Shown here: positions 20,133 to 35,700 of the stretch, one piece after another
Position numbering within the stretch: position 1 is the stretch's first letter
How the letters are laid out: each line of letters begins with the position of its first letter
NCBI GenBank assembly: GCA_000531095.1
Contig: HG799465.1
Span: 243,324 to 307,323, forward strand
Reading direction: 5' to 3'
From: Gemmata massiliana
GTDB taxonomy: Bacteria > Planctomycetota > Planctomycetia > Gemmatales > Gemmataceae
DNA: 64,000 nucleotides
Translations under genes and position numbers: made by a program
The notes under the pieces: generated by a model
Databases searched by the model: none
Seen by the model: only the letters and a program-made list of their open reading frames with translations
What the model was told of the DNA's origin: nothing

Positions 20133-20136
20133 TGCT

Positions 20137-20964
20137 TCATGCCAGTTTCAGCGATTTGAACTGCTTCACGCACCCCGTGATCGCGACTTCGGTCGGCAGG
20201 CGCTCGATGCTCGACGCGCCGAAGAAGCCAACAATACCTGTCGTGTGGTCGAGGACGTAGCGCACGTCGTCGGGTTCGGAAATCGGCCCGCCGTGGCACA
20301 GCACCAGGATCTCCGGGTTCACGGCCTTCGCCGCGTTCGCGAGTTCCTGCACGCGCTTCGCGGACTCTTCGAGCGAAAGGGCCGTCTTCGCGCCGATTGC
20401 CCCTTTTGTGGTCAGCCCCATGTGCGGGATGAGAACGTCTGCACCGGCGCGCGCCATTTGCTCCGCTTCCTCGGGCGTGAAAACGTAGGGGCAGGTGAGT
20501 AGGTCGAGGTCGCGTGCGGCCTTAATCATGTCTACTTCGAGCGCGTAACCCATGCCGGTTTCTTCCAGCCCGACGCGAAGAGTGCCGTCGAACAGGCCTA
20601 CCGTGGGAAAATTCTGCACGCCGCTGAACCCGGCGTCCTTTACGTCGAGGAGGAAGCGCTTCATCACGCGGAACGGGTCGGTACCGCAAACTCCCGCGAG
20701 GACCGGCGTGCGCTGCACGATCGGCAGCACCTCGCGGGCCATGTCCATGACGATCTGGTTCGCGTCGCCGTAGGGGAGCAGTCCGGCGAGCGACCCGCGC
20801 CCCGCCATGCGGAACCGGCCCGAGTTGTAAATGATGATGAGATCGATCCCGCCCATCTCGGCGCACTTGGCCGAGAGACCGGTACCGGCCCCGCCGCCGA
20901 CGATCGGAACACCGGCCGCGACTTGGGCGCGGAACCGCGCGAGAATATCGGAACGCGATTGCAT
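20137..20964 (-). CDS. PEP-hydrolase-like TIM-barrel protein (Tm-1 C-terminal type)
   Basis: 275 residues matching the phosphoenolpyruvate hydrolase-like family (PF09370). Conserved blocks include [96 protein letters not shown] and CHGGPIS. In tomato Tm-1 and in fungi this barrel is fused to the Tm-1-like ATP-binding domain; here that partner is a separate gene at 21681, transcribed divergently. Substrate not known. ATG 20964 opens the conserved N terminus. No signal peptide. Confidence 0.88.
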
Positions 20965-21106
20965 TGAGGAGTGGGGGTTCGGGAAGAGGTAAGGCCCGAA
21001 TGACAGGATACGGACGGGATGAGATGCGGACGATTACGAAGCTGAGGCACGAACGCTTCGCGCTACCGGTGTTCTGCCGGCTTCGGAGCTACGAAAACCA
21101 AGCCGG

Positions 21107-21164
21107 ATCTCGGTTCCTGGTTCTGATCCGCGTGATCTGCGTTTATCCGCGGTTCTGCTCTTTG
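21107..21164. repeat. dispersed CGCGGATnACGCAGAT-type element, single arm
   Basis: Right-arm sequence TCTGATCCGCGTGATCTGCG followed by TTTATCCGCGGTTCTG. Related arms occur at 23804, 25509-25655, 35525-35700 and 52853-52936. It overlaps the 3' end of the gene at 21143, whose Glu/Lys/Gln-rich C terminus is coded by the adjacent pyrimidine-rich tract. Confidence 0.7.
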
Positions 21165-21586
21165 TCTTCTGTCTTCTGCTCTTCGCTTTCTGTGTTCTGT
21201 TTTCTGTCCTCTGCCTTCTGACTCTCGGCTTCCAGAGCCATTTTCGCTTCGGCCTGGGCGAGTAGTTCGTTCAGGAGCTTTTCGGCCTCATCTTGGGACT
21301 GCTCGGTCTGCGGGCCAGTTTGCTGCGATGTGGCCGGACGATTTCCGCGAACGCGCCAGATAACGAGTTCGCTCACCGCGACGAACCCGAACCCCCAAAG
21401 CGCCATCGTGAACGGGATGCGGGAGCGAAGGGACGTGTTGATTTCTTCGTCCGGGTCGGCACTGCTGCGGGTGGCACTACCGGTGAGCCACAGGCCGGCG
21501 AGTTCGGCGAACATCATTCCGATGAGCGCGAGAGTTCCTGCGGTTAGCCCACCGTGTAATAGGATGCGCCGCAATACCGGGTGCAT
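21143..21586 (-). CDS. small two-helix membrane protein, function unknown
   Basis: 147 residues. Two membrane segments are visible: LTAGTLALIGMMFAELAGLWL near 14-34 and FTMALWGFGFVAVSELVIW near 60-78. A cytoplasmic tail follows, predicted coiled coil (AEKLLNELLAQAEAKMALEAESQ) then a low-complexity run of Glu, Lys and Gln. That run is encoded by the CTTCTGTCTTCTG-like pyrimidine tract next to a dispersed repeat, so the true C terminus may have been extended by repeat DNA. Lies between the divergent halves of the Tm-1-like pair. Confidence 0.55.
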   Translation of the reverse strand: MHPVLRRILLHGGLTAGTLALIGMMFAELAGLWLTGSATRSSADPDEEINTSLRSRIPFTMALWGFGFVAVSELVIWRVRGNRPATSQQTGPQTEQSQDEAEKLLNELLAQAEAKMALEAESQKAEDRKQNTESEEQKTEDKEQNRG

Positions 21587-21680
21587 TTTCGCCGCCCTCG
21601 TCGCCGGGTACTCGTTACATGTAACATATCACGCGATTTAAACTTAACCGGTCAGACGCGGAATCACGGGAGGGCGTTCC

Positions 21681-23023
21681 ATGTCCGTACTGCTTATCGG
21701 CACCCTGGACACTAAGGGAACCGAGTTCGCATACGTTCGCGATCAACTTCGGGCGGCTGGTGTTTCTGTGCTCGTGGCCGACGCCGGCGTGTTGGCCCCG
21801 CCCGCGTTTGCCTCGGATATTTCGCGAGAAACGATCTTTGCCGCAGCCGGGACGACGCACGCACAGGTCAAGGCTGCCGCGGACCGAGGAAAGGCGGTTG
21901 AACTGGCTGCGAAAGGAGTTGCGAAGCTCGCCGCTGACTTACACAAGCAGGGGAAGCTCTCCGGCGTGCTCGGGTTGGGTGGGTCTGCGGGTACGACGAT
22001 CGCCACCGCCGCGATGCGGGCGCTCCCGGTGGGAGTGCCGAAGCTGATGGTCAGCACGCTCGCGAGCGGGCAGGTCCAGCACTACGTCGGCACGCGCGAC
22101 GTGATGATGATGTACTCCGTTGTGGATATCGCTGGGCTGAATCGCATTAGTCGCGCAGTGCTCAACAACGCGGCGGGAGCGATGGCGGGGATGGTGGGCG
22201 GGAAGCAACCTAACCCCTAACCCCCTTCCCTAAGAAGGAAGGGGGAACAGAGGCATCGGCGGTTTTAAGCCCCTCTCCCCGCTCCGGCCCGCGAGAAGCT
22301 CCGCTGACAGGGCCGGAGAGCAAGCTGGGAGGAGTTGGGGAGGGGTTACAGCCTTCCCCCGATAAACCGGTCGTTGCTGCCACGATGTTCGGCGTGACCA
22401 CCCCGTGCGTAGAAGCGGCGCGGAAGGTGCTCGAATCGGCGGGGTACGAGGTGCTCGTGTTCCACGCGACCGGTACCGGCGGGCGCACGATGGAGGGGCT
22501 GATTCGCGACGGCCTCATCGCGGGCGTGCTCGACATCACCACGACGGAGTTGGCAGACGAACTGGTGGGCGGCGTGCTCTCCGCGGGTCCGGACCGTCTG
22601 ACGGCGGCGGCGATCGCGGGGGTACCACAAGTCGTCTCGCTCGGCGCGCTGGATATGGTGAACTTCGGCCCGCGGGACACCGTGCCCGAGCGGTACAAGG
22701 AGCGACTGTTCTACCAGCACAACCCGACCGTCACACTGATGCGCACTACGCCCGAAGAAATGGACCGCTTGGGGAAGGACATCGCGGAGCGAACGAGCGC
22801 GTCGAGCAGCCCGACGTGCGTGCTGGTGCCGCTCCGAGGGGTGTCCGCGATCGACGCCGAGGGGAAGCCGTTCTGGTGGCCTGACGCGGACGCGGCCCTC
22901 TTCCAGAGCCTGCGCAACTGGATCGCGCCCTACGTGGAACTGATCGAACTCGATCAACACATCAACGACCCGGCCTTCGCGGAAGCCTGTGCGCGGAAAC
23001 TGTTAGCAATGATGGGAGAGTGA
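21681..23023 (+). CDS. Tm-1-like ATP-binding (UPF0261) protein, interrupted by element copy B
   Basis: UPF0261/Tm-1-like family (PF06792). First part to 22206: LLIGTLDTKGTEFAYVRDQL, GVLGLGGSAGTTIATAAMRALP, MVSTLASGQVQHYVGTRDVMMMYSVVDIAGLNRISR. Second part from about 22350: DKPVVAATMFGVTTPCVEAAR, FHATGTGGRTMEGLI, DITTTELADELVGG and a final PAFAEACARKLL. Together about 400 residues plus the insert. The palindromic element separates the halves; a stop TAA arises at 22218. Adding one C to the CCCC run 22214-22217 (copy A has five) makes the whole reading frame continuous through the element. Partner of the PEP-hydrolase-like gene at 20137. Whether the protein is made depends on that base. Confidence 0.85.
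22207..22347 (+). repeat. palindromic element, copy B, inside the Tm-1-like gene
   Basis: 141 bp. Starts AACCTAACCCCTAACCCC, continues TTCCCTAAGAAGGAAGGGGG, then GCATCGGCGGTTTTAAGCCC, and ends AGGAGTTGGGGAGGGGTT after an inner palindrome CTCCGGCCC / GGGCCGGAG. The first 70 bases match the reverse complement of copy D (55017 back to about 54945) at most positions, including the non-palindromic middle, which shows common descent and insertion in both orientations. One C shorter than copy A in its first C run. Confidence 0.9.
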
Positions 23024-23044
23024 GCGCCCAGGGTTGGCGGAGCG

Positions 23045-23281
23045 CTGTCGAGCGGGTTCATATACCCGGCCACGACCCTCGACGGGTTCGGCCGGTATGT
23101 GGTGGCCTGGCGCCCGTCGAACGTGCGGGACGGTTCGTTCTGCCGGGAGGTGCTGGAGGAGGCGTTGAGCCGGCCCCTGGTGGTGTTCAACACGGACCAG
23201 GGGGCAGTTCAGGGTCGGGCGCCTGGAGCGGTGAGCGTGGACGGTGATCCCGGGGTCACGGACGCCCCCGGGTGGGAGTAG
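23045..23281 (+). mobile_element. remnant of an IS3-family transposase (OrfB integrase core)
   Basis: Frame 3k+2 reads SGFIYPATTLDGFGRYVVAW, then RPSNVRDGSFCREVLEEAL and VVFNTDQG, the DDE integrase block of IS3-group OrfB around the second catalytic Asp (FNTDQG). After about 70 residues the frame ends at a stop (23279-23281) and no N-terminal part, OrfA or terminal repeats are found. A dead fragment lying 22 bp after the Tm-1-like gene. Confidence 0.75.
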
Positions 23282-24064
23282 GAAGGACAATTTTTGGTCT
23301 AAACAATGAGGGGCACCCCAGAACTAAGGGGGCGAACAGTGCTCAACCATCGCACTCTTGCAACCTGATGATCGAGGTCGACTACAGTAGACAATTTAAA
23401 CGGCGGCGGACCAGCGACATCTATCGACCGCACCTCCGAATCTATCCTTCTGTCCACTGTCGTATAATTGAGTGTATCGAAGCCGCGCAGACGTTCTGAT
23501 GCCGACAAGACGAAGACGTTTTGGGAGGGGGAGTGTCAGCCTGTTGTTAGCCGCGCACGGGGGTGAAATGGAGGTTTTGGAGCGGTGTGTTAGCCGATGT
23601 TAGCATTCTGCACAAGCACCCAGTGGAGCTAAATCGCGTCAACGTATTGTGAACGCAACACTTAAGGCTCAACGCCGCGAACAAAATCTGCCGCGGGGGC
23701 CGAAAACGTTAGCATTTGTCACTCCGCACTGATCCGCAGAGCGATAGGTACGTGATGCCGCGCTGAATGCGAGTAAGTGTCCAGTGTTGAGAAGCAGAAG
23801 GATGAACCGCGGACAACGCAAATTACGCGGATCAGACAATGAGAGCGATTGGCGGTTATGTAAGGGAAGCGACATGGCGCAACCCTGGCAATGTTGGGTG
23901 TGAAGCTGAGAACCTTTGCAGCAGTTAGTGCTGGTTTCGACGGGGCGGTTGCGGGTACAACTGATGGACCTGCCGAGCACTATCGCCCCTGCTCTTTTAG
24001 TACGGTTCCGAGAGCGTCGCTCCTGCCAAATTCCGAGCGCACGCGATCGCAACGAGGCGCTGTG
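23282..24064. other. 783-bp gene-free interval with repeat debris
   Basis: Less G+C-rich than the genes around it. It holds one arm of the CGCGGAT dispersed repeat near 23804-23836 and three ATGTTAGC/GTTAGCAT words (23585-23720), which reappear near 63367 and 63460 close to the IS4 remnant. Mostly decayed mobile DNA and the promoter region of the DUF1501 gene. No supported ORF. Confidence 0.5.
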
Positions 24065-25498
24065 ATGAGTCACCGTTTCCCACACGTTCCCGCACTCGCC
24101 TCGCGACGCGACTTCCTCACCGCGGCCGGGGGCGGGTTCGGCGCTCTTGCGCTGTCCGCGCTCGCGGCCGCGGAGTCGTCACCCGCAACGCACACACCGG
24201 CTGATCCGCTCGCGCCGAAAAAGTCGCACTTCGAGGCGAAAGCGAAGTCCGTGATCTTCCTGTTTATGGAAGGCGGGCCGTCGCACGTCGACCTCTTTGA
24301 CCCGAAGCCGGAACTGACCAAACAACACGGCAAACCGCTGCCCGCGAGCTTCGGCAAAGTGCTCACGCCAATGGGTACGGGCGGGAACAACCTGCTCGCC
24401 AGCAAGCGCAAGTTCGCCAAACACGGCAAGAGCGGGTTGGATGTGAGCGACTGGTTGCCGCACATGGCCAGGTGCGCGGACGACCTCACGCTCCTCCGTG
24501 CGTGCTGGGCCGACGGGCTTAACCACGTCGGCAGCGTGTGCCAGATGAACACCGGCTCCATCCTCGCGGGGCGCCCGAGCCTCGGTTCGTGGGCGCTGTA
24601 CGGCCTCGGGAGCGTGAACCGCAATCTGCCCGGGTTCGTGGTGTTCACCGAGGGCGGACCGGAACCACTCGGCGGCGCGCGGAACTACGGCACCGGCTAC
24701 ATGCCCGCGACCTACCAGGGCACGCTGTTCCGCAACGGGCCGAACCCGATCCTGAACCTGAACCCGCCTGCGGGTGTTGGTGGGGAGCGTCAAAAGGACA
24801 AACTCGCACTCATCGGCGAACTGAACACCATCCACCGCCGCGAGCGCGCGAGCGACACGGAACTGGCCGCGCGCCAGGCCGCTTACGAACTCGCGTTCCG
24901 CATGCAGGCCAGCGCCCCCGATGTCGTTGATCTGTCGAAGGAGAGCGAGAAAACGAAGGAGATGTACGGGCTGAATCGCAAGGAGACGGCCGAGTTCGGT
25001 CACCGGTGCCTACTCGCCCGGCGCCTCGTCGAGCGCGGCGTGCGGTTCGTGCAGGTGTATTGCGGCGCGGGGAGCCAGTGGGACGCCCACTCGGACATTG
25101 AGGGCAACCACACGAAGATGTGCGGCCGCGCGGACCAGCCATCCGCGGCGCTCATCCGCGACCTCAAACAGCGCGGGATGCTCGACGACACGCTGGTGAT
25201 TTGGGGCGGCGAATTCGGGCGCACACCGATGAGCGAGGGCGCGAGCGGGCGCGACCACAACCCCTACGGTTTCTCAATGGTGATGGCGGGCGGCGGCGTG
25301 AAGGGCGGGTGCGTTCACGGGACGACGGACGAGTTCGGACTCTACGGCGTCGACGGCCGCGTTCACGTCCACGACTTCCACGCGACGATCCTGCACCTGC
25401 TCGGTTTCGATCATACGAAACTGACGTTCTTCCACAACGGAAAAGACGAGCGGCTCACCGACGTGAAGGGCAAAGTGATCCAGGAGATTCTGGCGTAG
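24065..25498 (+). CDS. DUF1501 family protein with Tat signal
   Basis: 477 residues. Twin-arginine signal SRRDFLTAAGGGFGALALSAL, then a sulfatase-like DUF1501 domain: VIFLFMEGGPSHVDLFDPKP, LLRACWADGLNHVGSVCQMNTGS, VYCGAGSQWDAHSDIEGNH, VIWGGEFGRTPMSEGASGRDHNPYGFS and VHDFHATILHLLGFDH. The Asp/His pattern suggests a metal-dependent alkaline-phosphatase-superfamily fold. In planctomycetes these genes usually sit beside a DUF1553 cytochrome-like gene; no such partner is here. ATG 24065 is chosen because the Tat motif follows directly; the long upstream frame lacks homology. Exported; substrate unknown. Confidence 0.9.
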   Translation: MSHRFPHVPALASRRDFLTAAGGGFGALALSALAAAESSPATHTPADPLAPKKSHFEAKAKSVIFLFMEGGPSHVDLFDPKPELTKQHGKPLPASFGKVLTPMGTGGNNLLASKRKFAKHGKSGLDVSDWLPHMARCADDLTLLRACWADGLNHVGSVCQMNTGSILAGRPSLGSWALYGLGSVNRNLPGFVVFTEGGPEPLGGARNYGTGYMPATYQGTLFRNGPNPILNLNPPAGVGGERQKDKLALIGELNTIHRRERASDTELAARQAAYELAFRMQASAPDVVDLSKESEKTKEMYGLNRKETAEFGHRCLLARRLVERGVRFVQVYCGAGSQWDAHSDIEGNHTKMCGRADQPSAALIRDLKQRGMLDDTLVIWGGEFGRTPMSEGASGRDHNPYGFSMVMAGGGVKGGCVHGTTDEFGLYGVDGRVHVHDFHATILHLLGFDHTKLTFFHNGKDERLTDVKGKVIQEILA

Positions 25499-25508
25499 GT
25501 TACAGCAA

Positions 25509-25655
25509 GGAACCGCGGGTCACGCGGATGAACGCAGATAAAACCAGCGCGGAACGGACGGTATAATTACGCAAAATGCTAAGATATTACAAATATAGGA
25601 CTTGCAACTTTCTTCTGTCCTGATCTGCGTTCATTCGCGTAATCTGCGGTTCTTC
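25509..25655. repeat. inverted pair of CGCGGAT-type repeat arms flanking an A+T core
   Basis: Left arm GGAACCGCGGGTCACGCGG from 25509 with CGCAGAT following; right arm TGATCTGCGTTCATTCGCG with TAATCTGCGGTTC ending near 25652. Between them is a 60-bp A+T-rich core (ATAATTACGCAAAATGC...). The arms are inverted relative to each other, giving a MITE-like layout after the DUF1501 gene. Confidence 0.7.
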
Positions 25656-25666
25656 TCTGGTACCGC

Positions 25667-25792
25667 TCACTTCTTCGGTTGTGTCGTCGGCCGGTCGTAG
25701 TCGCTGTTCTTGCCGCGTTCACGGGAACCACCGCACCCGATCGCGCCGACGCAGAGTGCGAAAAGCAGTCCGAATATTAAGGAACGTTTCAC
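25667..25792 (-). CDS. 41-residue predicted lipoprotein
   Basis: GTG start at 25792 with AAGGAG seven bases upstream. Signal VKRSLIFGLLFALCVGAIGC with lipobox AIGC at residues 17-20, then GGSRERGKNSDYDRPTTQPKK, a 20-residue polar tail. The longer frame to 26029 has no supporting start. It belongs to the tiny 'signal plus charged tail' lipoproteins common in this group. A related 33-residue one lies 185 bp upstream. Function unknown. Confidence 0.65.
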   Translation of the reverse strand: MKRSLIFGLLFALCVGAIGCGGSRERGKNSDYDRPTTQPKK

Positions 25793-25906
25793 GGTTAACT
25801 CCTTCACGATCAGCGATTTGCGATTTCGGGCAGCGTCGGCGATACGGCCACTAACCAGAATCCGATGCCGTGCCGAATCCGCTGTGGGCATGCTATGAAA
25901 ACGACA

Positions 25907-25935
25907 AAGGGTCGACCGATCAACGGTCGACCCTT
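25907..25935 (-). terminator. rho-independent-type hairpin downstream of the 33-residue lipoprotein
   Basis: Perfect 12-bp stem AAGGGTCGACCG / CGGTCGACCCTT (25907-25918 with 25924-25935). In the minus direction it follows the stop at 25977 by about 40 bases and is trailed by TGTCGTTTTC. Confidence 0.7.
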
Positions 25936-25976
25936 GTTCCACGCGAACGTGGTGCCCGCCATAAGCGGGCATCGAA

Positions 25977-26078
25977 TTACTTGCCCGAAGCCGGCTTGGT
26001 CGTGGCGGTAGCGCCGCCGCAGCCAACAACGGTGGAGACGGTCAGGGCGACGACGAGGGCGGCGATAACCTTCTTCAT
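25977..26078 (-). CDS. 33-residue predicted lipoprotein
   Basis: Too short for usual ORF cut-offs. ATG 26078 is preceded by GAGGAG six bases upstream. The protein is MKKVIAALVVALTVSTVVGC followed by GGATATTKPASGK: basic start, hydrophobic core, lipobox VVGC, and a short Thr/Lys tail. Own terminator at 25907. Good signals at both ends make it a real gene despite its size. Function unknown; abundant small lipoproteins of this kind may be envelope components. Confidence 0.7.
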   Translation of the reverse strand: MKKVIAALVVALTVSTVVGCGGATATTKPASGK

Positions 26079-26570
26079 GGGATACTCCTCGGAACGGTGA
26101 CGTACAGGTGGAACAACAGAGAGGTTCCTCGCGTCGCCCGGACGTCCCGGGGTTGCGGCCTTCTGTTTTGTTGGGGTTTAAACAAACCCACCACATGCTT
26201 CAGGCAAATTCGGTCTGACGTAGTGCGTAACTCGTTTCCGAATTACGGGTTCCGGTGCCATCATTGCCGATTCATGCGATCAATCCGTTTCACCCACGCC
26301 CACATAGATACGAAGCCGGGAAGGATATTCCCGAAAAATTTTCACCTCTCGAAATTTTCCTCCCTATTGTGATCCCGCTCCCCGGTTCTCGTCTGTGCTG
26401 AAAGCCGAAACGGGAGTGGAACTTCGGTGGTCCGGGATTCGTGAAATATCGAGTCCCGAAATCCGAAACTTTGGAACGCGAAACTTGTGGCGGCGTGAGA
26501 ACAGCGCGGCGCGCGAACAAAGTTCGGGAATAAACCCCGTGGTTCGGGTTCGTAAGGGTGAGGGTCGGGT
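26079..26570. other. 492-bp gene-free interval upstream of an ECF sigma gene
   Basis: Contains A+T-rich runs near 26325-26370 (GAAAAATTTTCACC, CGAAATTTTCC) in an otherwise G+C-rich region, a plausible promoter zone for the divergent lipoprotein and sigma-factor genes. No ORF supported. Confidence 0.45.
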
Positions 26571-27122
26571 ATGGCGTCTTCCGGCGGGCTACCCCAGTTA
26601 ATCGACGCCCATTATGAAGCCCTCTACCGGTACGCCTACCGACTGAGCGGGTCCGCGGCGGACGCCGAGGATCTGACGCAAGAAACGTTCGGGAAGGCAC
26701 TCGCCCGGTTGCCCCAGCTCCGCGAACTGGACCGCGCTCGAGCGTGGCTGTTCCGGATCTTGCGGAACCTGTATTTGCACAAAGTGCGGGACCAGAAGCG
26801 GCACAAAGTCGTCCCGCTCGATGCTGTGGGCGACCTGCCCCAGCAAACCGGCGACGACTCGGTGCCGGAAATTGACCCGGTGAAGCTCCAGCACGTGCTG
26901 GACGAATTGGATGAGACGTTTCGCACGCCCATCATCCTGTTCTATTTTGAAGAGTTCAGTTACCGCGACATTGCCGAGCAAATGGAGTTGCCGATCGGAA
27001 CCGTGATGTCGCGTTTGGCCCGGGGCAAGGCGTACCTCAGAACCCGCCTCAGCCCGGCCGACGAAGCGGACCGCGAACGGACCGCGCCCGCTCCGAAGAA
27101 GGTGACCGATGGACTGCCGTGA
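26571..27122 (+). CDS. ECF-type RNA polymerase sigma factor
   Basis: 183 residues. Region 2: LIDAHYEALYRYAYRLSGS, DAEDLTQETFGKALARL, RAWLFRILRNLYLHKVRD. Region 4: LDETFRTPIILFYFEEFSYRDIAEQMELPIGTVMSRLARGKAYLR. No C-terminal extension, unlike the sigma factor at 7469. The gene overlaps the next one by 14 bases, typical of a sigma/anti-sigma pair. Likely autoregulated and held inactive by the product of 27109. Confidence 0.92.
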   Translation: MASSGGLPQLIDAHYEALYRYAYRLSGSAADAEDLTQETFGKALARLPQLRELDRARAWLFRILRNLYLHKVRDQKRHKVVPLDAVGDLPQQTGDDSVPEIDPVKLQHVLDELDETFRTPIILFYFEEFSYRDIAEQMELPIGTVMSRLARGKAYLRTRLSPADEADRERTAPAPKKVTDGLP

Positions 27123-27876
27123 CGCACAATTTTACCTCCGACTCCGCCGCCACGCGACCGACGAACTCGGTCCGGACGTGACCGGCCCGCTCGACGACCA
27201 CCTGGCAACGTGCCCGGCGTGCGCCGCGAACGGCCGCGTGATCGCGTCGTTCGACCGCGCCGTTGTGCGGGCCATGATCGCGGTGCCGGTCCCGAGCGGG
27301 CTTCGTAGCCAGTTACTGGCCCGCGTCGCCGAGAAACGGGGCGCGGACCTGCGCCGGAAGGCGTACCGGGCCGTGGCCGCTCTCGCCGCATCGGTCCTGT
27401 TTGTGGGCATCGCGTTCGGGGTATTCACCAACACGCGCCCCAAAGTCGACGCCGACGCTCTCGTTCAAAGGGCCGACGAGCAACTGAGCGATCCCGAGCG
27501 CTCGACACGCGAGTGGCTCACCGCCCAGAAGCTCCCGGACCGGCTCCCGGACGAATGGGGGCTGGACTATTACCTCGTGATGCACCGCGGGCACGAGATG
27601 ATTAACAGCGAGTACGTGCCGGTGTACGTACCGGTGATCGTGTTCCGGAGTTCGGACCCGCGCGACCCCACCGCGTTCGCGAAAGTGTATTTGTTCCCCA
27701 ACAACGGCCGGTTCGACCTCAAGAACGTCCAGGACGCCCAGGCCTCGCTCACCACGGCCCGGGTCGTTGTCGGGCAGGGTGATCTGCGCGGCGTGACCTA
27801 CGTGATTGTCCACACCGGTGGCCCCCACGACGGACTCAAGCAGTTCCGCAGAAACCTCAACGGCCCTGGGGTCTGA
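27109..27876 (+). CDS. membrane anti-sigma factor with zinc-finger domain
   Basis: 255 residues. N-terminal putative-zinc-finger anti-sigma domain (DDHLATCPACAAN; H-x3-C-x2-C), one membrane helix (VAALAASVLFVGIAFGVF, about 86-103), and a periplasmic domain of about 150 residues with VPVYVPVIVFRSSD and GDLRGVTYVIVHTGGPHD. Start overlaps the sigma gene, implying translational coupling. It should bind the ECF factor in the cytoplasm and release it on an envelope signal. Ends before a strong terminator at 27897. Confidence 0.85.
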   Translation: MDCRDAQFYLRLRRHATDELGPDVTGPLDDHLATCPACAANGRVIASFDRAVVRAMIAVPVPSGLRSQLLARVAEKRGADLRRKAYRAVAALAASVLFVGIAFGVFTNTRPKVDADALVQRADEQLSDPERSTREWLTAQKLPDRLPDEWGLDYYLVMHRGHEMINSEYVPVYVPVIVFRSSDPRDPTAFAKVYLFPNNGRFDLKNVQDAQASLTTARVVVGQGDLRGVTYVIVHTGGPHDGLKQFRRNLNGPGV

Positions 27877-27896
27877 ACGTCCGCCCTCTGCTTTCC

Positions 27897-27933
27897 ACCG
27901 CGCCCCGGTCGCCAGACCGGGGCGCGGTCATTT
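27897..27933 (+). terminator. terminator after the sigma/anti-sigma operon
   Basis: Perfect 14-bp stem ACCGCGCCCCGGTC / GACCGGGGCGCGGT around GCCA, then CATTTG. It lies 20 bp after the anti-sigma stop and 65 bp before the selenoprotein ATG, so the latter has its own promoter. Confidence 0.75.
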
Positions 27934-27993
27934 GCTGCGTACAATTCCCGTGTCGGTGACGCGCCGACGCTCCACGTCTCATTGAGGTGCATC

Positions 27994-28233
27994 ATGAACA
28001 TCGAACTGAGGTACTGCTCGCTCTGAGGGTACGAGCCCAAAGCCGTCAGTTTGACGGCCACGCTGTTGAGCAATTTGAAGCAGAAGATTAAGGGGCTGAC
28101 CCTCGTCCCCGCGGGCGGCGGGTGCTTTGAGGTGATGCTCGACGGCGAGTTGATTTACTCGAAACTCAAAACCGGCCAGTTCCCCGACGAACAGACCGTT
28201 CTCGAATCCGTCCGGGGCAAATTGAAGAAATAG
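27994..28233 (+). CDS. SelW-like (Rdx family) selenoprotein, UGA at 28024 read as selenocysteine
   Basis: Reading through one in-frame TGA gives a 79-residue thioredoxin-like Rdx protein: MNIELRYCSLUGYEPKA, then LLSNLKQKIKGL, AGGGCFEVMLDGELIYSKL, KTGQFPDEQTV. The Y-C-x-x-U-G-Y active site and the GGG-FEV-DGELIYSK-TGxFP blocks are exactly the SelW pattern; cysteine homologues have Cys at the same place. ATG 27994 has GAGG six bases upstream. A SECIS-like hairpin follows the TGA. No other stop interrupts the frame. ORF finders start at TTG 28051 and lose the active site. Role by family: small redox protein, probably acting on glutathione or thiol partners. Requires Sec machinery elsewhere. Confidence 0.85.
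28042..28058 (+). promoter_or_regulatory. bacterial SECIS-like hairpin
   Basis: Perfect 7-bp stem GCCGTCA / TGACGGC with a GTT loop, inside the coding sequence. The loop begins 22 bases after the UGA at 28024-28026 and its first base is G, both within what is known of bacterial SECIS elements recognised by SelB. There is no unpaired U bulge as in E. coli fdhF, but bacterial elements vary. Confidence 0.7.
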
Positions 28234-28276
28234 CCTCGATCGTTCGTCACAACTCCCAGCAACGGCTCGAAATCCG

Positions 28277-28296
28277 TGCGCCAAAGGACTGGCGCA
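28277..28296 (+). terminator. weak terminator-like hairpin after the selenoprotein gene
   Basis: 7-bp stem TGCGCCA / TGGCGCA around AAGGAC, followed by TTGCGTTTCTTCC. Positioned 43 bases after the stop. The T tract is interrupted, so termination strength is uncertain. Confidence 0.4.
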
Positions 28297-28358
28297 TTGC
28301 GTTTCTTCCGCATCACGGTGATAATTTCGTCGGTCCCACCCCTCTCATGGAGACCGCT

Positions 28359-30014
28359 ATGCCCCGCCGGTCACTTGTTGTGCCGTTCGGCATTCTGTTC
28401 ACGTGTCTCGTGCTCGTTCCGGCCTGCAAGAAAAAGCCGGCTCCTACTGCGGCCCCCCCGGAGCCGAGTGCTCCCACGAGCACCGTCAGTTCCGATTACC
28501 TGCTGTTCGCCCACCTGAACGTGAAAGACATCCGCGACGGTGCCATCTTCACCGAGGTGAAGCAAGCGTTCGCAAAGGCAGGCGGCGGGTCCGATTGGGA
28601 CCAACTCGAAGGTCGAATCGGTCGCGAGACCGGGGTCAAACCGACCGATGTCGACGCGGTGACTGTCTGCGTGACCGAGGCTCCGGCGCGAGGGGAGCCG
28701 AACTTCGTCCTGATCGTCGCGGCCAACAAGCCGATACCCAAAACCTCTGCTTTCGGGCTGAACCCGCAAGCGAAGCCCGACGCCCGCGGCTTCTACCAGA
28801 TGCCGGGCGGGGGACTCATTCACTTCCCGAACGACAAGACGGCGGTTCTACTCAGCCCGGCACTCGTTCCGCAGTATCTGGAAGGGTACGCCAAGAACCA
28901 AACTAGCGGTTGGCCGCTTACCCCGGACCTCACGCGATCCGCCGCGGGGCACACGGCATTCGTAGTCGCTCGGTTGGACAAGTTGCCAGCCGAAGCGCGA
29001 AACGGCAACGAATTTAAAGATTTCGCACCATTCCTGACCGCTCGTACTGTCACCGTGACGGCCGACTTGAAGGGTAAGGAACTGAGCACTACGGCCCGCG
29101 TCACGTTCCCGGACGCGACCGCGGCCGGCCGAGCCAAAGAAAAGGGCCAAGAGCTAATCAAAATGGCGACCAGCGAGGTCGAGAAGCTCATGACGAGCAA
29201 ATCCGACTTCGCGGCCGTGCTACCCGCTGTTAAGGAAGCTCACCGCGCACTCCAGGCGGCCAGGGTCGAAGTGTCCGGGTCGGACCTGACCCTCGCGGCC
29301 GGCTACAAGGTCGACTTCGACCTTGGGCAAATGGTCACCGAGGCCGTGAAGAAGGTCCGGGGTTCGGCCGAAAAAATAACGACCACCAACAACTTCAAGC
29401 AGATCGGAATCGCCCTGCACAGCTACCACGACGCAAACGGCCAGGTTCCCGTACATGGAGTCGGGCCAAAGGGCGCGCTGCTCACAACGTCGCTCTTCGA
29501 TAAGACGAATAAGAAACCGCAGCCGCTCTTGAGTTGGCGCGTCGCGATTCTGCCGTACCTCGAACAGGACAACCTCTACCGACAGTTCAAGCTCGACGAA
29601 CCGTGGGACAGCGAGCACAACAAGAAACTCATCGACAAGATGCCCAAAGTGTTCGCACCGGTCGGTAAACCGGGCAAGCCGGGCTACACCCACACGCAGA
29701 TGGTCGTTGGCCCGAACGCTCTACAACTGCCGTCCGTCCGTATCCCCACCTCGTTCCCGGACGGCACGTCGAACACAATTGCGGCTATCGAGGCGGCCGA
29801 ACCGGTCATCTGGACCAAGCCGGACGACGTGATGTTGCCGGGCGCCGCACTGCCGAAGGATCTCAAGAAGAAGTTCGGCGGATTGCAGCCGGGTGGGTTC
29901 ACCGTTGTGATGTGGGACGGCTCGGCCCGATTCATCCCCGATACGGTCAGCGAACGAACCCTCGGCCTGCTTCTCAATCCAAAGGACGATCAGGTGATTC
30001 CGTCCGACTGGTGA
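28359..30014 (+). CDS. lipoprotein with C-terminal DUF1559 domain
   Basis: About 551 residues. Signal with lipobox LVPAC near residue 23, a Pro-rich linker, a long N-terminal domain (YLLFAHLNVKDIRDG ... ARLDKLPAEARNG), then DUF1559 from about residue 345: TTNNFKQIGIALHSYHDANG, LLSWRVAILPYLEQDNLYRQF, FPDGTSNTIAAIEA, VVMWDGSARFIPDTVSERTL. Usual DUF1559 proteins begin with a type IV pilin-like N-methylation helix; here a lipid anchor and another domain replace it. ATG 28359 has GGAGA 7 bases upstream, better than ATG 28347. Expected on the membrane surface; function unknown. Confidence 0.85.
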   Translation: MPRRSLVVPFGILFTCLVLVPACKKKPAPTAAPPEPSAPTSTVSSDYLLFAHLNVKDIRDGAIFTEVKQAFAKAGGGSDWDQLEGRIGRETGVKPTDVDAVTVCVTEAPARGEPNFVLIVAANKPIPKTSAFGLNPQAKPDARGFYQMPGGGLIHFPNDKTAVLLSPALVPQYLEGYAKNQTSGWPLTPDLTRSAAGHTAFVVARLDKLPAEARNGNEFKDFAPFLTARTVTVTADLKGKELSTTARVTFPDATAAGRAKEKGQELIKMATSEVEKLMTSKSDFAAVLPAVKEAHRALQAARVEVSGSDLTLAAGYKVDFDLGQMVTEAVKKVRGSAEKITTTNNFKQIGIALHSYHDANGQVPVHGVGPKGALLTTSLFDKTNKKPQPLLSWRVAILPYLEQDNLYRQFKLDEPWDSEHNKKLIDKMPKVFAPVGKPGKPGYTHTQMVVGPNALQLPSVRIPTSFPDGTSNTIAAIEAAEPVIWTKPDDVMLPGAALPKDLKKKFGGLQPGGFTVVMWDGSARFIPDTVSERTLGLLLNPKDDQVIPSDW

Positions 30015-30029
30015 AGCGTACAAAACACG

Positions 30030-30058
30030 AGCGGCCCGCCAAAAGGCGGGCCGCTTTC
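30030..30058. terminator. bidirectional terminator
   Basis: Perfect 11-bp stem AGCGGCCCGCC / GGCGGGCCGCT with AAAA loop, followed by TTTCGT on the plus strand. It separates the convergent DUF1559 and response-regulator genes. Confidence 0.8.
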
Positions 30059-30074
30059 GTACTCGAATCGCAAG

Positions 30075-30794
30075 TTACGCCCGCTGGACGGACTGGAACA
30101 GTTCACTCATCTTCATGCCCAGTGCCAGACAGATCCGGTACAGGGTTTCGATCGAGGCCGAGTTCTTGCCCAGTTCGATCTGGCTCAGGTACCCGAGCGA
30201 GACTCCGGTGCGGTCGCTCATGTTGGAGAGCGTCAGTGCCAGTGCCTTTCGGCGCTCGCGGATCGCCGCGCCGAGCGCCTCTTTGAGCGCGTCCTCGGTC
30301 ATCCGGAGGAGCCCCTGGCTCTCCAGGCACCGGTACACGATCTCGCGGAGCTGCTCGATCTGGAACGGCTTGGTCAGGTAGTCGCAGGTCTTCGCCCGGA
30401 GGCAGTTGATCGCGCTGTCCACCGACGGGTAGCCGGTGACGACGACGATGTTCGCGTCCGGTTGGTGGTCGCGGATCCAGCCGAACACCTGTTCCGCTTC
30501 GAGCCCCGGGAGCACGTAGTCCAGCACGATCAGGTGGTACCGCCGGCCCGACGAGAGCGCGGACTCCACCATCATCGGGTCGGACACGACCTCGGTCACG
30601 AAGTCGCGGTTGTTGAGCGCGGCCTGGATGACGGCGCACGTGTGCGGGTCGTCGTCCAGGATGAGAATGTGGATGTCACCCGAGGACTGAAGTTCCCGCG
30701 ACGCGGGCATCGCTTGTGGTTTCGGCGGCGGCGTCATGATCGGGTACAACGGTTTGGGTGTCTGGGTCAAACGGTCCTCAATGTCGTAAGGCAC
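30075..30794 (-). CDS. response regulator with XRE-type helix-turn-helix output
   Basis: 239 residues. A Pro-rich N-terminal lead (1-38) precedes a receiver domain with ILILDDDPHT, phospho-acceptor Asp in LIVLDYVLPG, the TGYPSVDSA switch and YLTKPF. The output (about 165-235) is a Cro/CI-type HTH: LSNMSDRTGVSLGYLSQIELGKNSASIETLYRICLALGM. Receiver plus XRE HTH is uncommon; most regulators carry winged-helix, LuxR or Fis outputs. Lies 5 bp downstream of the histidine-kinase gene, so they form one operon and very likely a signalling pair. Target promoters unknown. Confidence 0.88.
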   Translation of the reverse strand: MPYDIEDRLTQTPKPLYPIMTPPPKPQAMPASRELQSSGDIHILILDDDPHTCAVIQAALNNRDFVTEVVSDPMMVESALSSGRRYHLIVLDYVLPGLEAEQVFGWIRDHQPDANIVVVTGYPSVDSAINCLRAKTCDYLTKPFQIEQLREIVYRCLESQGLLRMTEDALKEALGAAIRERRKALALTLSNMSDRTGVSLGYLSQIELGKNSASIETLYRICLALGMKMSELFQSVQRA

Positions 30795-30799
30795 GGTGG

Positions 30800-32032
30800 C
30801 TAACCTCCGACCGCGTTAGCGGTGACAGATCCGGACACGGCCGGGGGTCGGGCGGCCGCCAGCGGCAGCACGACCCGCACCTGAGTGCCGGTTCCGGGTG
30901 ATGGTACGGGTTCGAGTTGAATTCCCCCGCGGTGCGAACACAGCACCCGGTAAACGATGGCCAGTCCTAGCCCACGGTGGCGCACTTTAGTGGTAAAGAA
31001 CGGTTCCACGAACAGCCGCCGCCGCACCTCCGGCTTGATCCCCGGGCCGGTGTCCGAAACGGTGATTTGGAGGTACCCGCCGACCCCGACGCGCCCCAGG
31101 TACCCCCGGGCGTCCGCGTCGCTCAGTTCGACCGGCCGGGCGGAAACCCGCACCACACCACCCGATGGGCACGCTTCGACGGCGTTTTCCAGCAGGTGCC
31201 CGAGCACGATCTGGAGCGGACCGGCCTCGACCGCGGCAGGCGGCAGGTTCGGTGCGAAGTCTTTTTCGATCCGGATCCCGTTCTGAGCCGCGATCTTCAA
31301 CCGCGTTTCTTCTTTTGCCAGTGCCAGGCTCACGGTGCCCGGGTTCGGCTTCACCTGTCCGCTGCGGCTCAGGTGGTGCAGTTGCTGGGTAAATTGAATC
31401 CCGCGCTGCCCGACTTTGCCGATCTCGGCTACGAAACTTGCGGGTTGCGAACCGGGCTGCAGCAACGGGAGCGTGAGGTCCGAGAACCCGATGATCCCTT
31501 GGAGCAAGTTGTCGAAATCGTGCGCCATGCGCCCGGCGATGACGGCGACGTCACCGAGCCGTTGGTACAGGCGCTCGGGATCGATCACGGGACCGATGAG
31601 GGACGAAAGCGCGGGAGCGCGTTCGACGGTCTTGGCCACGAGAGCGAGGTAGGCCCGCTCTCCGTCGGCCCAGGGCTGCCCGGCGGTCTTCTCGGCCCAC
31701 AGCACCCCGATCGGGCGCCCGGCCGGTTGGACGGCCGCGAACACGCGCCCCGTCGTTCCGGGAACCGAGTACAGGACCGTGGACTCGCCGCTCTTGAGCC
31801 GGCGCAAGGCATCGGGTACTTCGGGCGGGGCCGGAACGTCGATCTCTAGTCCGGCCTGAACTGTTTTCGTTACTGAGGCGCTGTCACTGGCCCACACGAA
31901 CCCGCACGCACGCCACCCGCACGCACGTGCCCAGCCGGACAAGAGTGCATCGAACGCGGCCGGCTCGGTGGTTTCTTGCCACCAGTTCGGGACATAAGCG
32001 AGTGCAGCAGTTAGCGTTCCGGGTGTGGACAT
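30800..32032 (-). CDS. GAF-domain sensor histidine kinase, probably soluble
   Basis: 410 residues without membrane segments. A GAF-like sensor occupies about 15-150 (FVWASDSASVTK, VFAAVQPAGRPIGVLWAEK, GERAYLALVAKTVERA). The phospho-acceptor is in AGRMAHDFDNLLQGIIG (NtrB-type H box with Asp where Asn is usual). The ATPase has N box HLLENAVEACPSGG, G1 VSDTGPGI, F box FVEPFFTTK and G2 GLGLAIVYRVL. It should phosphorylate the receiver-XRE protein encoded 5 bp downstream. A 447-bp gene-free region lies upstream. Confidence 0.88.
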   Translation of the reverse strand: MSTPGTLTAALAYVPNWWQETTEPAAFDALLSGWARACGWRACGFVWASDSASVTKTVQAGLEIDVPAPPEVPDALRRLKSGESTVLYSVPGTTGRVFAAVQPAGRPIGVLWAEKTAGQPWADGERAYLALVAKTVERAPALSSLIGPVIDPERLYQRLGDVAVIAGRMAHDFDNLLQGIIGFSDLTLPLLQPGSQPASFVAEIGKVGQRGIQFTQQLHHLSRSGQVKPNPGTVSLALAKEETRLKIAAQNGIRIEKDFAPNLPPAAVEAGPLQIVLGHLLENAVEACPSGGVVRVSARPVELSDADARGYLGRVGVGGYLQITVSDTGPGIKPEVRRRLFVEPFFTTKVRHRGLGLAIVYRVLCSHRGGIQLEPVPSPGTGTQVRVVLPLAAARPPAVSGSVTANAVGG

Positions 32033-32414
32033 CTACGGCTCTCCGGACCGTCGGCATGAACGAGTTCGGCCGGGTTTGGTGCGACCTGAATTCAGGGAAT
32101 TCATCCTGTATCTAGAACGGGCGTGAACGAAGTCAACCGGGTTATATCGCTTCAGCCGAATCGACGGATCACGCGGGGAGATAGGACCGATACAGAGACA
32201 CTAACAACAGTATGCTACTAACTGAGTTAGCGATCCGGAGCCGGGATGCGAATTACAAAATTAACAGCAAACTGCGAGCCGAAAGTGATTGCTAATTTTG
32301 TCGTTCCCGGAGCGAAAAATGCAAACAGGCTTGGGAAATCACTTCATACAAGAAGAACGCTGGGAACTGTCTACCTGTGCGGTCACTACCGCTGATGTAC
32401 CCTGAAAAAGTAAC
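32033..32414. other. gene-free interval upstream of the kinase operon
   Basis: About 380 bp with lower G+C (ACAGTATGCTACTAACTGAG, TGCTAATTTTGTCGTTCC). Promoter region for the minus-strand kinase operon on one side; the terminator of the HEAT-repeat gene lies just beyond it. No ORF supported. Confidence 0.45.
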
Positions 32415-32445
32415 GCCGGATGGGAGCCAAAGTCTCCCACCCGGC
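32415..32445 (-). terminator. rho-independent terminator of the HEAT-repeat gene
   Basis: 12-bp stem with one mismatch (GCCGGATGGGAG with CTCCCACCCGGC) around CCAAAGT. In the minus direction it lies 35 bases after the stop at 32480 and is followed by GTTACTTTTTC, a classic T tract. Confidence 0.8.
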
Positions 32446-32479
32446 TCCGATTTCCAGGATCGTCGCGGTAATCCCGGCG

Positions 32480-33691
32480 CTACTGTTTCTTTTCGGGGTC
32501 TTTCTTTGGCTCCGGTTTCTTCTCGATCTTCCGAATCGCGATCCCGGCCGCTTCACGAACCTTCACTTGTGGGTCCGCGAGACGCAATCGCAGCGCAACA
32601 ATCGTTTCCAGTGCCTCGGCTTTCACTCCCTTGTCGGGTGACATGAGATCAACGCCGAGGTGATCGTACCCCAACGCGGCGATCTCTTCGACGAGTGCAA
32701 GACGCACCTCGAAATCGGGCTGTTTGGACGGGTCGAGTAACGGGCGCAGCTCCTTGAGCCGGGCTTTCACTCCCGTCGGCCCGAGGGCCGACCCAAACGC
32801 TCGCACCGCGTCCACGCGGATGTCCTTCGTTTTGTCGGTCGTCGCTAGTTTGAATAAATCCTCTACGGCTGGGGCCGCGGCCGCCCCGAATGTCCCGAGG
32901 GTTCGTGCGGCACCTCGGCGCACCTCGTCCTCGGCGTCGGTAAGAGCGACAGTCAGCGCTTTAACGATCGGGTCGGACTTCTCCGCGAGTAACCCGATCG
33001 AAGCGAGTAGTTCGCGCCGGATATCGAGATCCTTTTCCGCACTGAGCATCGCGGCCATCGTTTCAGCGACGGTGGTCCCGGCTTCGGGAGTGACCCGCCC
33101 GAGTGCGTAAACCGCAGCAACACGAACCGACTTGGTAGTGTCTTTGAGTAACGGAATTAGTTCCGGAGCGGCCGATTTCGCCATCGCTCCGGCGAGTGCA
33201 AGGGCTTCTGCGGCGGCGATCCGAACCGCCGGCTCGGGATCTTTGAGCGCGGGCGTCAGAGATTCGACCCCGGCCGCGCACACGACAGGAAACTTGACCA
33301 TCGCGGCGATGATCTCTTTGCGAACCTTCGATTCCTTCTCTGTTTTGAGCACGTCGATCAGCGCCGGGGCGCCGTACTGTTTCATGTCCTCTTCGCGGAG
33401 CCCCGCGATCACGATCGCAGCTTGGGCGCGAACGGCCGCGCTCTTGTCGCTCCGGAGTACCGTGGTGACGTACTCGATCGCGCCCGTTCGGCGCTCCATG
33501 ATCCAGATTTTGCCCAGCGCATCGATCGCCAACGAGCGCTGCCGAACGGACTGCCCGGTCTGGGCAATGCTCGCCCACTCGCTGAACTTCTTGCCCTCGT
33601 AAACCGGGTCTTTGTCGTCCGCACTTATCTTGCTACCCGCCAGTACGACGAGCGCACACGCACTAACGACCCGTATGGTGGTAGCGAACAT
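32480..33691 (-). CDS. exported HEAT-repeat protein
   Basis: 403 residues. Signal peptide MFATTIRVVSACALVVLAGSKISA, then at least seven HEAT/PBS-lyase-type helical repeats, for example LTPALKDPEPAVRIAAAEALALAGA, LIPLLKDTTKSVRVAAVYALGRV and LTVALTDAEDEVRRGAARTLGTF, ending in a Lys/Pro/Glu tail. Such alpha-solenoids bind proteins; no catalytic residues. Start at 33691 is set by the signal peptide; the longer frame from 33757 adds a non-signal segment. Single-gene transcription unit with its own terminator. The partner is unknown. Confidence 0.85.
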   Translation of the reverse strand: MFATTIRVVSACALVVLAGSKISADDKDPVYEGKKFSEWASIAQTGQSVRQRSLAIDALGKIWIMERRTGAIEYVTTVLRSDKSAAVRAQAAIVIAGLREEDMKQYGAPALIDVLKTEKESKVRKEIIAAMVKFPVVCAAGVESLTPALKDPEPAVRIAAAEALALAGAMAKSAAPELIPLLKDTTKSVRVAAVYALGRVTPEAGTTVAETMAAMLSAEKDLDIRRELLASIGLLAEKSDPIVKALTVALTDAEDEVRRGAARTLGTFGAAAAPAVEDLFKLATTDKTKDIRVDAVRAFGSALGPTGVKARLKELRPLLDPSKQPDFEVRLALVEEIAALGYDHLGVDLMSPDKGVKAEALETIVALRLRLADPQVKVREAAGIAIRKIEKKPEPKKDPEKKQ

Positions 33692-33828
33692 GCTGTGGTC
33701 CCCGGAGCGACTGTTCAGCCAATCCCGATGATATGACGGACGTGACGAGCTGGTCAAACAGTTTCACCGCGTGGCCATTGCGTGCCCGGAACGAGAATCG
33801 CGATGCAATGAACCCGCACCAAAACTTC

Positions 33829-33860
33829 GTGTGTGGTGACTAACCGAAGTCACCACACAC
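33829..33860 (-). terminator. hairpin after the zinc-ribbon membrane protein gene
   Basis: Perfect 12-bp stem GTGTGTGGTGAC / GTCACCACACAC around TAACCGAA. Downstream of the minus-strand stop at 33875 and followed in that direction by GAAGTTTTGG. Confidence 0.7.
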
Positions 33861-33874
33861 GAACGAGTACGGCG

Positions 33875-35086
33875 TTACGCACCGTCTTCGACGGTGCGTA
33901 TAAAATCGCGGGCCGCCACACGGACCCCACGAACCGCTCGCCAGTACGCGCCCACCAGGATCAGCCAACCGATTAGCAGCGCGGCCTGCTCGTACATTAA
34001 CCGGTCTTCGACCGGCTGAATTTGCGGTTGCAGGTGGATCTTGTACTGATCTAACCCGAACAGCACCAGTACGGGGATCAGAGCGCAGAGAAAACCGAAG
34101 AACCCGACCGCACGAGCGACACTCGGCCGCTTCAGCGCCAATCCGCTCGCCGTCAGAGCCGTGAGGAACCAGAACTCCGCGAGCGGTGTGCAAAGCAAGA
34201 ACGCCGTCCGCGCGTACTTCGCTTCCTCGGCAAACGATGCCTTCTCGCACACGGCGTAACCGAGAAGCGATACGAACGACACCAGCGCGAGCAACCCGCT
34301 CAAGGCAAACAACCCGCGCGAGCCGCTGTTCCGCGGGCCACCGCTGCTAACGAGCCGGCCAATGGTCAACAGGAAGCCGGCCATGAAAACCGGCACCCCA
34401 TACGCCAATATGTTGATTTCCTCAGTCTTCGAGAGCGGGATCGCGTCCGGTCCGCCGGAGTTGATGTACCCGTCGATCCGGACCCACCCCTCGCCCTTCG
34501 GCAGTTCGCCAACGGCCCGAGTGTACACCGCTTTGCCGAAGCCGACGAACCCGAGCAGGGCGACGAAAAGCAGCGCGAATTGCACCCAGAACAACCCGCG
34601 CCGAACGGCGGCCCACTTCTTCGCGAGTACTTGGTCGGGCGTTTTTTCCGTACTCGTTGCACTCGGTTTCGGCTCGGGTCTCGCGGGTTTGGGGCGCGGT
34701 TTGGCCCCGCGATCACGAGTGGGAAGCGGTTTCGGTTCGGGTTCCTGATCCGGTTCCGGCTCCGGGGGCGGAGCGGGAGGATGAGACGAACTAAAGGCCC
34801 GCGCCGGTGCGGTCGGAACGGGAGCGGTCGGTACCGACGCGGCCGGAACCGCGCCCCAATCTTCGGGCGGTGCAACCGGGGCCGGGCGCAGCGGGGACGC
34901 TGCGCGCGACGGCGGTGGGGCGACGGGTGGGAGCGGAGCGGTCGGGGCACCAGCCGAAGCCGATTCTTCGGACGTGGGCACCGGCACAGCCGCCTGACAG
35001 TACGGGCACTTTACCCGCTTTCCAGCGGATTCGTCCCGCGCCCGGAACCGTTTCCCGCACGACGGGCAACCCAACGTAATCGGCAT
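33875..35086 (-). CDS. zinc-ribbon membrane protein with Pro-rich linker
   Basis: 403 residues. N-terminal zinc ribbon ITLGCPSCGKRFRARDESAGKR with CPYC (two C-x2-C pairs), a 120-residue Pro/Ala/Glu linker, then a membrane domain with five to six hydrophobic segments (FWVQFALLFVALLGFVGFG, AYGVPVFMAGFLLTIGRL, GLFALSGLLALVSFVSLLGYA, AVGFFGFLCALIPVLVLFGL, ALLIGWLILVGAYWRAV). MJ0042-like zinc ribbons at the start of membrane proteins are common in planctomycetes. ATG 35086 is directly before the ribbon. Function unknown. Confidence 0.75.
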   Translation of the reverse strand: MPITLGCPSCGKRFRARDESAGKRVKCPYCQAAVPVPTSEESASAGAPTAPLPPVAPPPSRAASPLRPAPVAPPEDWGAVPAASVPTAPVPTAPARAFSSSHPPAPPPEPEPDQEPEPKPLPTRDRGAKPRPKPARPEPKPSATSTEKTPDQVLAKKWAAVRRGLFWVQFALLFVALLGFVGFGKAVYTRAVGELPKGEGWVRIDGYINSGGPDAIPLSKTEEINILAYGVPVFMAGFLLTIGRLVSSGGPRNSGSRGLFALSGLLALVSFVSLLGYAVCEKASFAEEAKYARTAFLLCTPLAEFWFLTALTASGLALKRPSVARAVGFFGFLCALIPVLVLFGLDQYKIHLQPQIQPVEDRLMYEQAALLIGWLILVGAYWRAVRGVRVAARDFIRTVEDGA

Positions 35087-35247
35087 GGCGACGAACTCCC
35101 GGCTAACAGCAAGTCTGTGGTGCGCGCCCCAACAGGTACGTCTGTGTCGACATGGTAAGCCCGAACGCAGCACGGAAAAACCCCGGGCGCGGGAAAAATC
35201 GTCTGCGGAGGTTCCGCAAAATGCGACCGTACCGCACCGCCGAGTAC

Positions 35248-35508
35248 CTAGAAACGTGGGGCGGGCCGCTTCCAATCCGCGTCGTAGGGAATTGAGAAGA
35301 GTTGTTGAAGCAGTTCGGCCTTGTTCGGCGCCTCACCCATGAGAACCTCGACGGCCTTTCGCAATTTCACGGCCCGCGGGTCCGTCGCAGCCGCACCGGA
35401 GCCGTCCCCGCGCCCGATGCGGTCGAAGATCGCGGCCGTTTCGAGCAATTTGCTACGCGCATCAAGGAAGAACTGGTCCAGCGCGGTCGCGGCGGGAAGC
35501 GGAGTCAT
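35248..35508 (-). CDS. conserved small cytoplasmic protein, function unknown
   Basis: 86 residues: LDQFFLDARSKLLETAAIFDRI, a Gly/Ser loop, DPRAVKLRKAVEVLMGE, APNKAELLQQLFSIPYDADW. I recall close relatives across planctomycetes, all unnamed. Mostly helical, no signal peptide. ATG 35508 is used; the longer frame runs into repeat DNA. Confidence 0.65.
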   Translation of the reverse strand: MTPLPAATALDQFFLDARSKLLETAAIFDRIGRGDGSGAAATDPRAVKLRKAVEVLMGEAPNKAELLQQLFSIPYDADWKRPAPRF

Positions 35509-35524
35509 GGCTAATTCCTGGCAG

Positions 35525-35700
35525 CGAAGAAGCACGAATACAGAAAAAGCCACGGATGAACACAGATGAGACGGAATCAACCAAAACTGCAAAAGGGGAG
35601 TAGTCGGCGGCGTGCAAGCTCAACGAATCTCTCGCCCCATTTCGATCGATACTTTCCTGGTTTTGATCCGTGTTATCAGCGTTTATCCGTGGCTACTCTT
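35525..35700. repeat. inverted pair of CGGAT-type repeat arms
   Basis: Left arm AAAAGCCACGGATGAACACAG near 35537-35570; right arm TTTTGATCCGTGTTATCAGCG and TTTATCCGTGGC near 35658-35693. The arms are inverted copies of the same consensus as the other CGCGGAT elements but with CACGGAT. The right arm reaches the 3' end of larE. Confidence 0.65.

Follow-up and report, generated by a model that had tools for sequence, protein, structure and literature searches.

The selW-like gene and its surroundings

Within the window (the whole 64-kb stretch of Gemmata massiliana DNA analysed here), a short reading frame opens with ATG at 27994, closes with TAG at 28231-28233 and is interrupted by a TGA at its eleventh codon (Table 1). 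With this TGA read as selenocysteine (Sec), the product is MNIELRYCSLUGYEPKAVSLTATLLSNLKQKIKGLTLVPAGGGCFEVMLDGELIYSKLKTGQFPDEQTVLESVRGKLKK. It matches the Pfam family Rdx (PF10262) at 70 bits (cut-off 22.6, E 2e-19) over residues 3-74, which correspond to positions 2-73 of a profile of 74, i.e. nearly the whole profile. The internal TGA lies in the context YCSL-U-GYEP and completes a CxxU redox motif, C8-S-L-U11, near the N-terminus. The original prediction had described an in-frame UGA selenoprotein overlooked by ORF calling, with the CxxU active site of the SelW/Rdx family and one clean stop, and the frame, the motif and the nearly full-length profile match all agree with this description. 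It had also stated that standard callers would start at TTG 28051 and lose the redox site. Indeed, the only ORF that a UGA-blind list holds in this frame is that one; it begins at the last base of the putative SECIS loop and is devoid of the redox site.

Rdx occurs once in the host genome, with one TGA inside, according to a six-frame search. The selW-like gene is flanked on one side by a sigma-70-type gene and the gene that follows it (26571-27876), and on the other side by a gene for a DUF1559 protein (28347-30014). The gene after the sigma-70-type gene occupies an anti-sigma-like position, and its sole match, to DUF3379, is under the cut-off. In an Rfam search of positions 20000-36000 (E up to 10), all seven matches fell far short of the gathering score of their family, and a tRNA scan of the 64-kb window detected no tRNA.

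Table 1. Features of the selW-like locus (window coordinates) and of the selenocysteine-related loci elsewhere in the host genome (contig coordinates).
Feature	Position	Strand	Details and basis
selW-like (Rdx family) selenoprotein gene	27994..28233	+	79 residues with TGA read as Sec; PF10262 70 bits; in-frame TGA conserved
Sec codon of the CxxU site (in-frame TGA, codon 11)	28024..28026	+	sequence, frame, homologue alignment
Shine-Dalgarno-like GAGGTG	27984..27989	+	4 nt 5' of ATG; by eye
Truncated ORF, TTG start	28051..28233	+	60 aa; from UGA-blind ORF list
Bacterial SECIS hairpin	28042..28058	+	arms 28042-28048 and 28052-28058; loop GTT 28049-28051; covariation, codon constraint
AhpC/TSA-like (peroxiredoxin-like) selenoprotein candidate, L133	C1:1380610-1381035	-	UxxC (RHLAUIPC); SECIS-like hairpin
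selA	C6:268817-270166		549 bits, cut-off 267.9
selD	C14:19010-19924		383 bits, cut-off 125
selC (tRNA-Sec), anticodon TCA	C9:29478-29571		72 bits, cut-off 47; ARAGORN call tRNA-SeC
selB, two frames	C3:432847-435031		GTPase, domain 2, SelB beta-barrel and winged-helix matches
selB repeat insert	G000:C3:433348-433654 (L022:7349-7655)		single N in C-run

Conservation of the internal UGA codon

Rdx matches are present in 76 of the 95 genomes of the host's taxonomic family and in 143 of 392 sampled genomes of the phylum. Among the matches listed for the family, 85 of 89 contain an in-frame TGA (82 with one and three with two); the other four are a Gly codon (G023) and a Cys codon (G463) at the Sec site and two partial matches (G464, G494). 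The locus with Gly (GGT; L103, G023:C172:17783-17995) belongs to a genome with selA, selB, selD and tRNA-Sec. For closer comparison we assembled a non-random sample of 81 loci, made up of the gene itself, 60 loci from the family and phylum searches and 20 chosen by hand. These yielded 83 matches, which were reduced to 76 by removing two spurious second domains and merging records identical over 80 nt; 70 of the retained records have the UGA, 65 of them distinct over 36 nt, and six do not. The 39 named loci come from Gemmataceae and other planctomycetes, together with MAGs labelled Verrucomicrobia, Acidobacteria, Poribacteria and Anaerolineales and one record labelled Klebsiella.

In the extracted homologous proteins, the CxxU motif is accompanied by conserved residues both before and after the UGA. 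It could be argued that the codon at 28024 is really TGC or TGT and was misread in sequencing, or that it reflects a recent nonsense mutation or a pseudogene, given that five homologous loci do carry TGC or TGT and that an N in selB makes another spot of the assembly doubtful. However, a TGA occupies this codon in numerous separate genomes across the family and phylum, which refutes sequencing error and nonsense mutation as a general explanation. The covarying hairpin described below further speaks against both. Moreover, pN/pS 3' of the TGA is 0.15-0.24 between the host genome (G000) and three relatives (G008, G012, G002), which argues against a pseudogene or an error; for the ten codons 5' of the TGA the changes are too few for judgement. 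We therefore consider an artefact or a decayed gene very improbable.

The next in-frame stop comes 63-77 codons past the UGA in all 70 UGA-containing genes, where their homologues end, and this terminal stop is itself TGA in 39 of the 70. UGA is thus not simply a sense codon in these organisms, and the internal UGA must be marked out by its context. An altered meaning of UGA (Trp, for example) or non-specific readthrough would account for an internal UGA that is apparently read in selW, but it sits poorly with these 39 terminal TGA codons, with the alignment of the UGA to a redox Cys and with the presence of a SECIS hairpin and Sec genes. We regard this possibility as extremely unlikely.

A SECIS-like hairpin downstream of the UGA

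As originally predicted, a 7-bp hairpin with a GTT triloop starts 15 nt past the UGA and has its loop at 22 nt. Alone, the hairpin has a folding energy of -9.9 kcal/mol, and it is also present when the 36 nt following the UGA are folded to their minimum free energy (MFE; -16.6 kcal/mol). This 36-nt fold is more stable than expected (z -3.78; one of 200 shuffled sequences did as well). When 66 nt starting at 28015 are folded instead, z is just -1.45 and 18 of 200 shuffled sequences do as well. The bacterial SECIS model, as given in the accessible text of PMC13188914, allows an apical loop of 3-9 nt on an upper stem of 4-16 bp, requires G at loop position 1 or 2, and sets a distance of 16-37 nt from UGA to apical loop and an MFE of at most -7.5 kcal/mol. 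The selW hairpin lies within all four of these constraints (3-nt loop and 7 bp; loop G; 22 nt; -9.9 or -16.6 kcal/mol).

By itself, the hairpin is weak evidence for a SECIS. Among the 1454 TGA triplets that the two strands of the window contain, only one, inevitably that of selW, is followed by a hairpin of exactly this geometry (7 pairs, triloop, same spacing, G-U allowed); less strictly defined 7-bp hairpins with a G in the loop follow 92, which counts against the significance of the selW hairpin. Chance is excluded by the Rdx protein match taken together with conservation, namely that of the UGA and the loop G, hairpin covariation and codon constraint. In an alignment of the 65 distinct UGA genes (A1), 89.2% of the cells are paired and two-sided changes are seen in five of the seven pairs. 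On each of five measures, all 500 shuffles scored lower, and slid controls were 22-49% paired. The two outer pairs are weaker (formed in 40 and 50 of the 65 sequences), and the loop G is invariant (65/65). Codon choice over the loop is similarly restricted: where a Ser codon covers the loop it is AGT in 47 of 51 cases, while AGT accounts for 11 of 271 Ser codons in the rest of these genes; where a Gly codon does so it is GGT in 18 of 18, compared with 39 of 370 Gly codons outside the loop (neither comparison is corrected for relatedness). The six non-UGA homologues, five with Cys (TGC or TGT) and one with Gly, form two to four of the seven pairs, although this control is not clean, because at least four of the five Cys homologues resemble a different Rdx subfamily.

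A second UGA-containing gene

The original prediction had proposed looking for other UGA proteins in the same genome, and such a gene exists: one of the 29 AhpC/TSA matches in the host genome contains a TGA, here in a UxxC motif. It is followed by a similar SECIS-like hairpin of 7 bp with a GGT loop lying 21 nt past the UGA. Within the genus, nine of the other 18 genomes have a TGA-containing copy of this peroxiredoxin-like gene that scores above 200 bits. Among 30 homologous loci, 26 have TGA, three have a Cys codon and one is without the motif. Six or seven of the seven pairs can form in 24 of the 26 TGA loci (four and three in the remaining two), and loop position 1 is G in all 26. The three Cys loci form seven, four and two pairs. 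The one with the full 7-bp hairpin (TGT; L145, G016:C1:1979762-1980187) counts against a clean link between UGA and hairpin; it perhaps reflects a recent Sec-to-Cys change that left a relic SECIS. The selW-like and AhpC/TSA-like genes are unrelated, and their hairpins share the same stem and loop size with different stem sequences. Two such genes make a good independent case that this lineage decodes Sec.

We also built a covariance model (R1) on a second alignment (A2) of 34 sequences, 18 selW and 16 peroxiredoxin-like, picked by hand from a random 50 of 90. Its 95% of paired cells is inflated, since the picks favoured clean stems, and we relied on A1 instead. In a search of the host genome in which 150 of 2410 first-look candidates were scored, R1 recovered selW at E 1e-4 and, at E 0.02, the peroxiredoxin-like gene, as was bound to happen with a model that contains both sequences. 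Two further matches were rejected. The first (E 1.2) has no TGA near the site. The second (E 2.6; L169, G000:C3:578172-578212) follows a TGA, with the translation QAVGLAEE and then a repeat element and with no recognised protein; it is probably a chance match or a remnant. Searches of the host genome for formate dehydrogenase alpha (nine matches, none over the cut-off) and for CMD/AhpD (five matches) revealed no copy with TGA inside.

Selenocysteine machinery and the split selB gene

The host genome (9.27 Mb in 22 contigs, 96.5% complete) was examined for the four Sec genes named in the original prediction. Of these, selA, selD and a tRNA-Sec with anticodon TCA are present as expected; selB is also present, yet in two frames. 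The tRNA-Sec model matches 14 of 14 control genomes at E 0.001, five of them over the cut-off, and we therefore give weight only to the high score combined with the ARAGORN call. Together with the second UGA gene, selA, selD and tRNA-Sec uphold the proposed use of selenocysteine by this planctomycete, the two-frame state of selB being the one reservation.

Across relatives, the distribution of Sec genes and of UGA-containing selW is mostly, though not fully, consistent. Among the 23 genomes with a UGA selW in the set G000-G036, no tRNA-Sec above 52 bits was found in G003, G020, G021 and G034, in a search whose stricter filters lose some weak matches, and no selA over the cut-off in G018 and G034. 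All five of these genomes are drafts, assembled into 280 to 1430 contigs. Some relatives retain Sec genes and have no selW (e.g. G004, G005, G009, G013). Two genomes (G028, G030), too few to count, are without selA and Rdx, and neither selB nor selD passes the cut-off in them. In four relatives (G019, G027, G034, G036) selW directly adjoins selD, an arrangement suggesting that selW is expressed together with genes of selenium metabolism. Two of these selD matches, those of G034 and G036, contain a TGA themselves.

In the host assembly, selB consists of frames of 211 and 546 aa, neither of which alone exceeds the family cut-off. The break lies between the GTPase domain and domain II, inside a low-complexity repeat insert of about 300 bp. 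This insert holds the sole N of its 16-kb stretch, in C-rich repeat sequence. In five relatives (G001, G006, G008, G012, G016) selB is one frame, with in-frame inserts of differing sequence at the same place. The pN/pS values of the two halves are 0.028 and 0.084 between the host and G008, and 0.065 and 0.131 between the host and G012. The corresponding values between the intact genes of G008 and G012 are similar (0.069 and 0.127), and no relaxation is therefore seen in either half. We consider an assembly error the most likely cause of the split. A real interruption, with Sec decoded by a two-piece factor or after a frame change in the C-rich insert, seems unlikely; if true, it would mean that a repeat insertion had made a Sec elongation factor split or recoded.

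In the window itself, positions 11753-11980 carry an inverted repeat, CTAACCCCCTAAC ... GTTAGGGGGTTAG, and the motif of one arm recurs in the selB insert. By eye, a P-loop is encoded 3' of this inverted repeat, which may thus lie within a gene.

The split of selB could alternatively mean that the selW-like gene is a Sec gene by descent only, whose decoding now fails through a broken SelB so that just a 10-residue peptide is made. Against this stand the position of the break near an N in a C-rich repeat, the pN/pS of the selB halves resembling that of an intact pair, the SelB domains found on both halves and the retention of both UGA genes and of selA, selD and selC. A failure of decoding thus appears improbable.

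We regard it as almost certain that the stop codon at 28024 is read as selenocysteine, and we think it very likely that 27994-28233 is a functional selW-like selenoprotein gene in which Sec is inserted through the hairpin and SelB. Translation would begin at ATG 27994, and the hairpin just 3' of the UGA would bind SelB carrying Sec-tRNA(UCA), leading to insertion of Sec in place of termination. The product would be an Rdx-family protein of small size that acts in thiol/selenol redox chemistry through its CxxU site. Given its sequence similarity to solved Rdx structures, it would adopt a thioredoxin-like fold. Redox activity of this protein and a functional SelB in this strain are, like the fold and Sec insertion itself, inferred.

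Comparison with known selenoproteins

The closest parallels are the CxxU SelW-like selenoproteins of ocean bacteria, which, in the accessible text of PMC1088965 and PMC2398784, belong to the same family and share the CxxU motif and a downstream SECIS with a loop G. These sets, from the Sargasso Sea and the Global Ocean Sampling, differ in host, and the string 'planctomyc' does not occur in the main text of PMC2398784. SelW-like proteins and SelD are given there as the most widespread in the ocean survey, and SelW-like also forms a row in the bacterial selenoprotein table in the accessible part of PMC1794560. Full Sec-insertion gene sets were reported, per the main text of PMC4807772 (2016), in Gemmata obscuriglobus and Isosphaera pallida, which are likewise planctomycetes. 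SelW is absent from that main text, which refers to the supplement for the selenoprotein candidates of strains P1 and P2. The main text of a survey of bacterial selenium use (PMC5029168) contains neither 'planctomyc' nor 'SelW', and among the open-licence papers listed in our literature searches none dealt with this gene in Gemmata.

The same domain is recognisable by sequence in the solved Rdx proteins 2ljk (C17orf37), 2fa8 (Atu0228), 3dex (SAV_2001), 2obk, 2p0g, 2oka, 2ojl and 2npb (Selenoprotein W), with E from 3.8e-9 to 0.019. In the alignments to 2ljk, 2fa8 and 3dex, Cys stands where the selW-like gene has Sec. As CxxU SelW-like selenoproteins in bacteria and Sec genes in Gemmata are already known, the gene described here is ordinary in kind; it corrects the annotation and opens no new mechanism. 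Nevertheless, Rdx is encoded by 76 of the 95 genomes of the family, a sizeable set of planctomycetes, and a UGA-blind caller would truncate the protein, with loss of its redox site, in 85 of the 89 matches listed. The Sec genes reported in Gemmata gain at least two likely substrates.
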